Origin: Dehalococcoidia bacterium | GTDB lineage: Bacteria; Chloroflexota; Dehalococcoidia; UBA2979 | Assembly: GCA_029246995.1 (NCBI GenBank) | Contig: JAQWMB010000003.1 | Location: 1-43,602 of the forward strand | Direction of reading: 5' to 3' | DNA: 43,602 nt | Shown here: positions 17,850 through 21,538 of the stretch, piece after piece | Position numbering within the stretch: position 1 is the first letter of the stretch | Layout: every line of letters starts with the position of its first letter | The notes under the pieces: generated by a model | Seen by the model: only the letters and a program-made list of their open reading frames with translations | Database searches by the model: none | What the model was told of the DNA's origin: nothing | Translations under genes and position numbers: made by a program

Positions 17850-18365
17850 CTAAAAAAACTTTAGTATTAAATTTTTTGCATCTTTTACAAAGCCTATAAA
17901 ATCTGAAAATATATTTTGTGTCACATTTACATCCATCACTTCTTGTGGGTAGGCATCATTTCCTTGTGGTGGTAATTTATATTTTTCTGGTATATATGAA
18001 ACTACCTCTAGAGGGATATAGGATTGGTAAGATTGTATAGGTTTTACTTTAATCATTCCATTTTCTAATGCTGAAGAGACTATTCTTTCTATATATAATA
18101 ATTTTGCAATTTCTACTTCTATTTCTGCAATTTCAGCCTGTAAATTATTATTAACTAAATCAAGATTTTTTCCTTCATATCCTATAGTAGATAACTTATC
18201 AGTTGCCAAGACCTGAGTTATACCAATGATGCAAATGAATATAGATAAAAATATATATGGTGAGAGATTACGTTTTTTAACTAGAGACTTGTGCTGTAGT
18301 TGTTTTTTGTTTCTTGTTTCTTGTTTTGCATAAATTTTTTCTGCAGTAGGATTTGCTAAAACCAT
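17850..18365 (-). CDS. FtsL/septum-formation-initiator-like protein
   Basis: Basic N-terminus, single TM, short coiled coil (LDLVNNNLQAEIAEIEVEIAKL), position between rsmH and ftsI. Confidence 0.65.
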   Translation of the reverse strand: MVLANPTAEKIYAKQETRNKKQLQHKSLVKKRNLSPYIFLSIFICIIGITQVLATDKLSTIGYEGKNLDLVNNNLQAEIAEIEVEIAKLLYIERIVSSALENGMIKVKPIQSYQSYIPLEVVSYIPEKYKLPPQGNDAYPQEVMDVNVTQNIFSDFIGFVKDAKNLILKFF

Positions 18366-19318
18366 TAGGATGCCTTCCTTGAATCAATTGTTTCTGCAAT
18401 TCGTATTTTTGCTGATCTGGCTGATGGATTTTCATCAATTTCTTCATCTGTCGGAGTAATGATTTTCTTATTAATAATTTGTAATTTTGCAACATGATTG
18501 CAATTACAAATTATTAATTTTGCTGGACAGATACAATGCCTTGATTCATGTTGGAAAAAATGCTTTACGACTCTGTCTTCTAGTGAGTGAAAAGATATTA
18601 CAACCAATCTTCCTCCTGGTTTTTCAAGTAATTGCAATGATTTAGTTAGTGCAATTTTTAGTAACTCTATCTCAGAGTTCACAGCAATTCTAATTGCTTG
18701 AAAGGATTTGGTTGCTGGATGAATTCTATTTCTTTTTTTACTTCTTGGATACACTGATAAAATAAGCTTAGTTAAATCTTCAGTATTATTAATTGGCCTT
18801 TTACGTATTATTGCTTTAGCTATTTTCTTACTATGTTTTTCTTCACCAAATTCTCGTAAGATATTATTTAGTTCAAGTTCTGAAGTTTTATTTACGATTT
18901 CATGGGCAGTATTTTTTTGTTTCTCATCCATTCTCATGTCTAGTGGTGCATTGTATCTAAACGAAAATCCTCTTTTATTATCATTAAGTTGAATTTGTGA
19001 AGTACCTAAATCAAACAAAATACCGTTAATTTTATTAAAATTACTTATTTTTGCAATTTGTTCTATTGAGCTAAAATCAAGATTGTGTAATGAAATTGAA
19101 TTTTTAAAATTTAATAAATTTTTTCTAGCTATTGCAAGAGCCTTTTCATCCTTATCAATGCCTATCACTTTAGTATTTGGGTATTTTTCAAGAATTGCTT
19201 TAGTGTGGCCTCCAGCACCTAAAGTGGCATCAAGGAAGTGGCTATTATCTTTTAAATTTAAACCTCTGATGACTTCTTTAATCATTACAGTTTTGTGCTC
19301 AACAATTTTATTCCTCAT
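18365..19318 (-). CDS. rsmH: 16S rRNA (cytosine(1402)-N(4))-methyltransferase RsmH
   Basis: HKTVMIKEVIRGL, DATLGAGGHTKAIL, GILFDLGTSQIQL, ISFHSLEDRVVKHFF. Confidence 0.98.
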   Translation of the reverse strand: MRNKIVEHKTVMIKEVIRGLNLKDNSHFLDATLGAGGHTKAILEKYPNTKVIGIDKDEKALAIARKNLLNFKNSISLHNLDFSSIEQIAKISNFNKINGILFDLGTSQIQLNDNKRGFSFRYNAPLDMRMDEKQKNTAHEIVNKTSELELNNILREFGEEKHSKKIAKAIIRKRPINNTEDLTKLILSVYPRSKKRNRIHPATKSFQAIRIAVNSEIELLKIALTKSLQLLEKPGGRLVVISFHSLEDRVVKHFFQHESRHCICPAKLIICNCNHVAKLQIINKKIITPTDEEIDENPSARSAKIRIAETIDSRKAS

Positions 19319-19715
19319 CTAATTCCTCGCTAATAAGTTCTTTTCCCCACTTAGATGTTGGCCATATTTCTATGTAATCTCCGCACCCAACGATTGTGAT
19401 CATTTTTGCGTCATCTAATATTTCTCTTAATTTTGTAGGTATTAATACTCTTCCTTGTGAGTCAAGATCAATTTCAAAAGCACCAGCTAAAAAATTTCTT
19501 CTTACTTTTCGCCCAATCTGTTTTCTATTACTAACATGTTCGCCGAGTCTTTTTGAAGTTTCCTCTTCAAAACCAGCTGCCGTATAAAGTTCCAAGCACT
19601 TATCAGGACTCTCTTTGATAACTGCACCTTTCAAAAAAGCAGTGCGATACCGAGGGGGAATTGAAATTCTACCTCTAGCATCTATTGCGTAATCATAAGA
19701 ACCAAAAAAATACAT
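19308..19715 (-). CDS. mraZ: Transcriptional regulator MraZ
   Basis: DARGRISIPPRYR and FEIDLDSQGRVLIPTKLRE tandem AbrB-like motifs. Confidence 0.97.
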   Translation of the reverse strand: MYFFGSYDYAIDARGRISIPPRYRTAFLKGAVIKESPDKCLELYTAAGFEEETSKRLGEHVSNRKQIGRKVRRNFLAGAFEIDLDSQGRVLIPTKLREILDDAKMITIVGCGDYIEIWPTSKWGKELISEELDEE

Positions 19716-19736: not shown

Positions 19737-19771
19737 AGGGAATTATTGGGTAATTAGCCCATTTACACCCA
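19737..19771. promoter_or_regulatory. Candidate MraZ operator (four boxes, 10-bp phase)
   Basis: AGGGA-N5-TGGGT-N5-GCCCA-N5-ACCCA starting at 19737, 19747, 19757, 19767, just upstream of mraZ. Confidence 0.75.
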
Positions 19772-19855
19772 TTTCTTATCATTTAAAGTACCAAATTCAA
19801 CCAGATTCGACAAGTATTATCCAAAAAAGTATTAATATTTTTCTTTAGGAATATT

Positions 19856-19883
19856 TTGATTTTATTGGTATAAAAAGTATATT
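19856..19883 (+). promoter_or_regulatory. Candidate -35/-10 promoter for mogA-like/trmD operon
   Basis: TTGATT - 16 bp - TATATT; the -10 ends 9 nt before the annotated start, so the transcript may be nearly leaderless. Confidence 0.35.
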
Positions 19884-19892
19884 TTTAGTAGA

Positions 19893-20432
19893 ATGATTAT
19901 TCTAATGGAAGAAATTAATAAAAGAAAAGCTTTAATTATCGTTTTAAGCGATCTTGGCTCTCAAGGTAAAAGAGAAGATACTGCAGGCGCATCAGTGAAA
20001 ATGATATTAGAGAATCATTCATTTAATATCATTAAAAAAATAATCATTCCTGATGATTATCAGACTTTGGTAAATCTCTTGATTGATTCAACTATCGAGA
20101 GCTTTAAAAATGTAGACATGATTTTAACCATTGGTGGAACTGGTTTGTCTCCTAGGGATATTACACCTCAAGCGACAAAAGATATCTTAGACTTAGAAAT
20201 ACCTGGAATATCAGAACTTATTCGGATTAAGGGATATGAATTTAATCATTTTTCAATACTCAGTAGAAGCATTGCTGGTGTGCGTAATAAAGTATTAATT
20301 ATTAATCTTCCGGGTAGCCTAAAAGGTGCTACAGAAAGTCTTAATATAATTGTTGATCAGCTTGAACATCTTTTAACTCAAATACAAGGAGTCATTGATG
20401 CTGAACATAAGGAGTTGAATAGTGAAAGTTAA
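19893..20432 (+). CDS. MogA/MoaB family molybdenum cofactor biosynthesis protein
   Basis: LTIGGTGLSPRDITPQATKDIL and NLPGSLKGATESL; alternative ATG at 19905. Confidence 0.9.
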   Translation: MIILMEEINKRKALIIVLSDLGSQGKREDTAGASVKMILENHSFNIIKKIIIPDDYQTLVNLLIDSTIESFKNVDMILTIGGTGLSPRDITPQATKDILDLEIPGISELIRIKGYEFNHFSILSRSIAGVRNKVLIINLPGSLKGATESLNIIVDQLEHLLTQIQGVIDAEHKELNSES

Positions 20433-21156
20433 TATACTAACTTTATTTCCTGAATTTTTTTCTAGTCCATTAAATGTTTCTATTTTAAATCGAGCAATTA
20501 ATGAAAAAATTATTCATGTAGATATTCATGATTTAAGGGAATGGGGTATTGGGAAACATCGTCAAGTTGATGACACTTCATATGGAGGAGGTCCGGGTAT
20601 GGTATTAATGGCTGAGCCATTGATTAGGTCTATAGATGAAATTTCTAAAATGCAATCCGAGCAAGCCCATGTAATCTTGATGACACCTCAGGGAGAACAA
20701 TTAAACTACGAAACTGCAAAAAACATTGCCAAACAAAAAAATATAATTATTGTATGTGGAAAATATGAAGGTATTGATGAAAGAGTTGTAGAAAAGAGCA
20801 TTGATCAACAAATATCTTTAGCCGATGTTGTTTTTTCTGGTGGTGAAATACCAGCATTAGCATTAATAGATTCAGTTTCAAGATTAATACCAGGTGTTTT
20901 AGGCGATGCAGAATCTTTAAATGAAGAATCATTTTGTGATAATTTACTTGAATATCCACATTATACAAAACCTGCTTCTGTCCATGATATGCATGTACCA
21001 GAAGTGCTTTTATCAGGTAATCATAAAATGATTAACGATTGGCGTCACAAGCAGCAAATTTTACGCACAGCTTTAAAAAGAAAAGATTTAATTGAAAAAA
21101 AAGAATTAACTACTGAAGAAAAAAAATGGCTAGTTGAAAGTAATGATGAAACGTAG
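20422..21156 (+). CDS. trmD: tRNA (guanine-N1)-methyltransferase TrmD
   Basis: DDTSYGGGPGMVLMAEPL, CGKYEGIDERV, GGEIPALALIDSVSRLIPGVLG; GTG start. Confidence 0.98.
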   Translation: MKVNILTLFPEFFSSPLNVSILNRAINEKIIHVDIHDLREWGIGKHRQVDDTSYGGGPGMVLMAEPLIRSIDEISKMQSEQAHVILMTPQGEQLNYETAKNIAKQKNIIIVCGKYEGIDERVVEKSIDQQISLADVVFSGGEIPALALIDSVSRLIPGVLGDAESLNEESFCDNLLEYPHYTKPASVHDMHVPEVLLSGNHKMINDWRHKQQILRTALKRKDLIEKKELTTEEKKWLVESNDET

Positions 21157-21199
21157 AATAATCTATAGATATTAATTATTAATGTAACGGGAAAGTTAG

Positions 21200-21538
21200 A
21201 TGAATAAAAATTTACTAGAAGAAATTGCTATAACTACTAATCCTCATCTGGAAGACGTGAGGCCAGGTGATCAAATCAGAATTTCATACAGAATTGTAGA
21301 AGGTGACAGAGAAAGGCTGCAGCCTTTTGAAGGTATTGTAATCAAAAGAAGAAATGGCAAGGATGGCAGTATTACTGTCAGAAGAATTGCATCTGGGGTT
21401 GGGGTTGAAAGAACGATCCCATTACAATCAAATCGTGTAGAAAAGGTAGAGCTTATACAAAGAGGTAAAGTTCGTCGTTCTAAGCTCTATTTCTTAAGAG
21501 GCAGGACAGGTAAATCTGCTCGATTAAAACAGAAATAG
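21200..21538 (+). CDS. rplS: 50S ribosomal protein L19
   Basis: RPGDQIRISYRIVEGDRERLQPFEGIVIKRRNG... RRSKLYFLRGRTGKSARLK. Confidence 0.99.
   Translation: MNKNLLEEIAITTNPHLEDVRPGDQIRISYRIVEGDRERLQPFEGIVIKRRNGKDGSITVRRIASGVGVERTIPLQSNRVEKVELIQRGKVRRSKLYFLRGRTGKSARLKQK

Follow-up and report, generated by a model that had tools for sequence, protein, structure and literature searches.

A candidate MraZ operator with two boxes inverted in helical phase at the mraZ promoter of a Dehalococcoidia bacterium

The mraZ locus and its surroundings

The stretch of DNA analysed here, referred to as the window, comprises 43,602 nucleotides of contig JAQWMB010000003.1 from a Dehalococcoidia bacterium (GCA_029246995.1). 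On its minus strand it carries the start of a dcw cluster, which a 177-bp intergenic region separates from a divergent operon on the plus strand. The genes flanking this region are listed below.

18365–19318, minus strand: rsmH (mraW), the second dcw gene (TIGR00006, 355.7 bits)
19308–19715, minus strand: mraZ, 135 aa with two AbrB-like halves (PF02381 over its cut-off in each half; structural model matching MraZ)
19893–20432, plus strand: mogA/moaB-like gene, the first of the divergent operon (TIGR00177 over cut-off)
20422–21156, plus strand: trmD, divergent operon (TIGR00088)

Downstream of mraZ, the dcw order continues with rsmH, an ftsL-like gene, a gene for an ftsI-type transpeptidase and, by reading, a murF-like ORF. 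On the other side trmD is followed by rplS (by reading), and the mogA/moaB-like–trmD–rplS stretch occupies positions 19893–21538. The product of mraZ scored 90 bits with TIGR00242, just below the cut-off of 98.35, and its structural model matched the fold of 1N0E, 9QLG and 9R4J with E-values of 8.8e-13 to 2.8e-12. The model superposes on Mycoplasma MraZ with a TM score of up to 0.86, the best match being a promoter-bound chain of M. genitalium, and a motif of the D-x-x-G-R type is intact in both AbrB-like halves. By profile and fold, the protein is MraZ.

Four boxes in phase downstream of the predicted mraZ promoter

Within the intergenic region, positions 19737–19771 read AGGGA ATTAT TGGGT AATTA GCCCA TTTAC ACCCA on the plus strand, with four GGG/CCC boxes that start at 19737, 19747, 19757 and 19767 and thus keep an exact 10-bp pitch. 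As mraZ lies on the minus strand, its coding strand reads TGGGT GTAAA TGGGC TAATT ACCCA ATAAT TCCCT, that is, two direct boxes followed by two inverted ones. Together with the predicted promoter, the features in transcriptional order are:

19808–19813, minus strand: predicted −35 of mraZ, TTGTCG, 17 bp from the −10 hexamer, a weak match to the consensus (TTGTAG at equal spacing in the sister species)
19785–19793, minus strand: predicted extended −10 of mraZ, TGG-TACTTT, invariant in the sister species
19767–19771, minus strand: box 1, direct, TGGGT, at predicted +8 to +12; its TGGG is kept in the sister species within an invariant 29-bp block
19757–19761, minus strand: box 2, direct, TGGGC; 33 loci of the window's family were anchored on the TGGGN6TGGG pair, with up to one mismatch
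19747–19751, plus strand: box 3, inverted, ACCCA on the mraZ strand and TGGGT on the plus strand; CCC at the exact register in 25 of 33 family loci and 13 of 16 genera
19737–19741, plus strand: box 4, inverted and weaker, TCCCT on the mraZ strand and AGGGA on the plus strand; in-register CCC in both species of the window's genus and in genus g5, with TCCCA in the sister species

Three of the four boxes in the window are perfect TGGGN, and AGGGA (19737–19741, plus strand) is without the T. The direct boxes place GGG at offsets +1 to +3 of each 10-bp unit and the inverted boxes place CCC at identical offsets, so that flipping a box about its central base pair exchanges the strands of its GGG:CCC triplet but leaves the helix face unchanged. 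A preliminary description of this DNA had placed four boxes at 10-bp phase in front of the dcw cluster, and we find sequence and coordinates as it gave them; the inversion in mid-array at constant helical phase, which it had also pointed out, is true of the window and proved to be a feature of the whole family.

The window has a GC content of 31% and the intergenic region one of 25%. Among 20,000 dinucleotide shuffles of the 177-bp region none contained four in-phase GGG/CCC triplets in any orientation, while 25 contained three, and base composition leads one to expect 0.0003 exact GGGN7GGGN7CCCN7CCC sites per genome; a chance origin of the array in the window is excluded. The genome-wide motif scan that had been proposed was run as a search for patterns rather than with a weight matrix, on an assembly that is 89% complete. 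With at most one mismatch allowed, the four-triplet pattern occurs in the 1.19-Mb genome solely at 19737–19771, where it is found on both strands because it is its own reverse complement; the control gave 0 hits. There are 17 other TGGGN6TGGG pairs, of which 16 lie inside long open frames, and the remaining one (C17:61840–61853) lies in a short frame outside any long ORF, without an in-phase CCC after it. When these direct pairs and the TGGGN7CCCA sites were checked for their coding context, no second MraZ target was evident in the genome, which fits an operon-specific autoregulator.

Usual promoter geometry predicts transcription to start near 19778 and thereby places the array at about +8 to +42, starting about 8 bp after the predicted start. 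In the alignment of the window with its sister species, the invariant 29-bp block, ATTTGGTACTTTAAATGATAAGAAATGGG, starts from the extended −10 (TGG-TACTTT) and reaches into box 1, and 17 bp upstream there is a hexamer, TTGT[CA]G. All 33 family loci have TGnTAnnnT on the upstream side of box 1, at a distance of 20, 21 or 22 bp. The array sits just downstream of the predicted mraZ −10, as known MraZ operators do. In Escherichia coli, the dcw operon from mraZ to murC is repressed by MraZ from Pmra (Eraso et al. 2014, as cited in PMC7761207). Pmra carries TGGGA AATTG TGGGG CAAAG TGGGA directly after the mraZ −10, the first box lying 8 nt past the apparent −10 by reading. It resembles the window in its TGGG boxes, its 10-bp pitch and its placement relative to the −10, whereas all its boxes are direct and an in-phase CCC is absent. 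PmraBc of Burkholderia cenocepacia has four 7-nt repeats with 3-nt spacers that cover the start site downstream of the −10, in a fragment bound by MraZ in EMSA (PMC7761207); it shares with the window four repeats at 10-bp pitch near the start site, but is described as a series of repeats, with inversion unmentioned. Likewise, the Mycoplasma MraZ site (AAAGTGKN3)3 and the four-box promoter structure 9SZ7 show 10-bp repeats before mraZ, and the window model matches the promoter-bound subunits; in contrast to the window, these repeats are direct and have a different core. An mraZ mutant of M. genitalium shows altered expression of the cluster (PMC8475190). One regulator family with both kinds of repeat is that of the HsdC controllers of Mollicutes: most species have direct repeats, M. 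conjunctivae and M. mobile have inverted ones, and the HsdC site is bound by M. gallisepticum MraZ in vitro (PMC5282649). HsdC is, however, a restriction-system controller and not MraZ, its spacing differs, and mixed orientations within one array are not described for it. So far as surveyed, the published MraZ consensus sites are direct repeats, and a literature search covering few subscription papers found none of mixed orientation.

For Staphylococcus aureus, a G-rich tract downstream of PmraZ has been reported as an intramolecular G-quadruplex (PMC11796246), and the G-rich boxes of the window might be thought to act in the same way. We regard this as barely conceivable here: with two GGG runs per strand, an ordinary four-run intramolecular quadruplex is impossible on either strand, and the flip would destroy such a structure, yet it is conserved.

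Conservation and orientation of the boxes

In the sister species (contig QGNP01000009.1) the array reads TGGGA TTAAA TGGGA GAAAT ACCCT ACTAT TCCCA, with the four triplets in register and 12 of 12 core bases conserved. In each of the two species three boxes are perfect TGGGN and one is AGGGN; the weak box is the fourth in the window and the third in the sister species. The family set comprises 33 loci from 16 genera, anchored on the direct pair with at most one mismatch; L021, in which the second box is mutated and which mis-anchors, was left out of the statistics. The CCC that 25 of these loci, from 13 genera, carry exactly at +21, the position of the third box, occurred in a mean of 1.6 and a maximum of 8 genera in 5,000 shuffles. 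Counts are given by genus because related species are not independent and because the loci were chosen for diversity, those of the class and the phylum having been picked from similarity-sorted lists for family diversity and not at random. The preliminary description had staked its reading on conservation of the boxes in close relatives, and both the sister species and the family were found to keep the array. A second in-phase inverted box is present in genera g1 and g5 of the family, as well as in L150 of another family, f33; genera g2, g3 and g12 of the window's family have no in-phase inverted box. Within the inverted third box, the position mirroring the T of TGGG holds A in 13 of 25 loci and T in 9. 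Given this degeneracy of the flipped boxes, their recognition by MraZ may be weak or may fail altogether.

In the rest of the class, CCC occupies the next in-phase position in 14 of 75 anchored loci, notably in family f33, where L150 has a 2+2 array and L102 and L151–L153 have 3+1 arrays. The rest of the phylum shows a CCC on the 3′ side in 2 of 53 loci, about chance level, a typical array being TGGGG CAAAG TGGGG CAAAG TGGGG; the flip is therefore a feature of a clade and not general to MraZ sites. Since other lineages carry a direct box at the next in-phase position, the inverted boxes fill positions that MraZ boxes use elsewhere.

The mirror image of the window's arrangement was also seen: L032, L115, L117, L118 and L148 of the class and L219 of the phylum have an in-phase inverted box that precedes the direct boxes on their 5′ side (NCCCA CGAAG TGGGG or similar); in some loci this inverted box lies at or close to the start site. 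In class loci outside the window's family (e.g. L033, L067–L076, L099, L100, L110–L112), 37 of 42 cases have the extended −10 (TGnTAnnnT) and the boxes in a common 10-bp register, so that the TGG of the −10 may also serve as a weak MraZ box.

With TGGGN7CCC[AT] as the most conserved inverted element, boxes 2 and 3 could alternatively be read as a palindrome, TGGGN7CCCA, which would overlap the MraZ direct pair and serve a different regulator, a dimer, and TGGGN7CCCA sites are indeed frequent in the genome (20, against 3 for a control pattern). Many of them, however, contain the TTCGA core of tRNA T-arms, an assignment based on the core sequence, with ARAGORN run on L088 only. The others examined lie in open frames, and none of the TGGGN7CCCA sites examined resembled the further regulatory sites that such a regulator would be expected to have. 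A palindrome moreover leaves unexplained both the in-phase fourth box of g1, g5 and L150 and the 5′-flipped boxes at the same pitch, and we hold this explanation to be quite improbable.

Genus g9 of the window's family (L048, L049, L050, L096), whose MraZ is about 30% identical to that of the window, differs in its operator region. The 10-bp TGGG array is absent upstream of mraZ, and TAGGG boxes are found around the mraZ promoter at a spacing of 41 bp (or 42 bp), about four helical turns, with three copies at 41+41 in L048 and L049. This arrangement is possibly a rewired operator.

Control of the mraZ promoter and alternative readings

The array is probably an operator through which MraZ would control, and most likely repress, its own promoter and the dcw operon, with the 3′ boxes flipped about their own centres and the phase kept. 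Its anatomy, its placement against a conserved promoter, the conservation and phase of boxes 1–3 in the family and the presence of box 4 in g1 and g5 can be read directly from the DNA. As had been suggested beforehand, the array can be described as a predicted MraZ-type operator for mraZ and dcw: it adjoins mraZ just downstream of its promoter, is conserved in relatives and is unique in the genome. The inversion of boxes 3 and 4 departs from the all-direct arrangement by which an MraZ operator is recognised, and as the inversion of box 3 is kept in 13 of 16 genera, we class the array as a variant and not as a plain MraZ operator. The regulator is ordinary and at its ordinary place; its operator is unusual and conserved.

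MraZ forms a ring of subunits, each with two AbrB-like halves. In the mechanism that we propose, boxes 1 and 2 would provide the canonical direct TGGG pair at 10-bp pitch, starting about 8 bp past the predicted mraZ start, and boxes 3 and 4, turned about their own centres, would prolong the array at the same pitch. Subunits of the MraZ ring would line up along the shared helix face and cover the initially transcribed region, which would block RNA polymerase, and falling MraZ levels would release the dcw operon. Binding of MraZ to the array, contact with the flipped boxes and repression as the outcome are what we infer from sequence and conservation. How a ring could accommodate the flip is more speculative. 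If a subunit had an internal pseudo-twofold axis, a box could be flipped in place, since the triplet keeps the same face. We tentatively suggest, with somewhat less than even confidence, that an MraZ subunit reads its box via such an axis on the middle G of TGGGN, which presumably would pass through the centre of the box. A flip would then be tolerated without turning the subunit or breaking the ring, the flipped 3′ boxes would be functional parts of one continuous operator, and their orientation would tune binding strength or geometry.

MraZ belongs to the bacterial transcription factors with the widest conservation, and its complex with a four-box promoter can be seen in cryo-EM entries that appeared in 2026. 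A natural and conserved array in which two boxes are flipped where they stand offers a test of how this ring-shaped protein reads DNA, either by subunit polarity, which admits direct boxes only, or by an internal pseudo-dyad, which admits boxes either way, and the window array is testable directly against the 2026 structures. It also provides a conservation-supported candidate operator for the control of cell division in uncultured Dehalococcoidia (Chloroflexota).

It had further been proposed that the array possibly acts in both directions; MraZ bound to the inverted half would then also govern the divergent mogA–trmD operon. The divergent order beside mraZ is kept in most of the loci examined that have enough flank, across much of the class, as such control might lead one to expect. 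In all 33 family loci, the position of the array is nevertheless tied to the mraZ promoter alone. The nearest candidate −10 of mogA, an extended one reading TGG-TATAAA (19866–19874), lies about 94 bp from box 1 with the mraZ promoter in between, although this mogA promoter is a guess, with 3 consensus sites on the plus strand against 1.8 in shuffles. The array is also kept in g7, g16 and g17, three genera that have trmD as the divergent neighbour and in which no mogA could be detected next to mraZ. Locked to the mraZ −10 and retained where mogA was not detected, the array gives no support to control of mogA–trmD, which the preliminary description had held possible and which we consider very unlikely.

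Lying within the predicted mraZ leader, the array might also act as RNA. The operator would then consist of boxes 1 and 2 only, and the CCC boxes would pair with the GGG boxes (2 with 3, 1 with 4) in a leader hairpin tuning translation, stability or attenuation. Predicted folds of the window and sister leaders do give such a nested hairpin, box 2/3 within box 1/4. Against this, the variable positions pair in the family no more often than column composition expects (10 against 7.9 for positions 14 and 20, 14 against 14.0 for positions 10 and 24, and likewise for the spacers), and the leaders are not more stable than shuffled ones, with z values of 0.31 for the window and −0.92 for the sister species. 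The differences between the two species beside the stems are not compensatory, and some loci outside the family have their inverted box on the 5′ side of the direct boxes, at the start site or close to it. An Rfam search returned no match for a hairpin element, and a terminator search found none. A leader hairpin in the window's family is not supported by these comparisons, and we judge it unlikely as an explanation of the flipped boxes, preferring the extended MraZ operator. In family f33 (L150, L102, L151, L152, L153) the array spacers are, by reading, partly complementary, e.g. GGGGAAAGA...TCTTCCCC, and a leader hairpin may exist there alongside the boxes.
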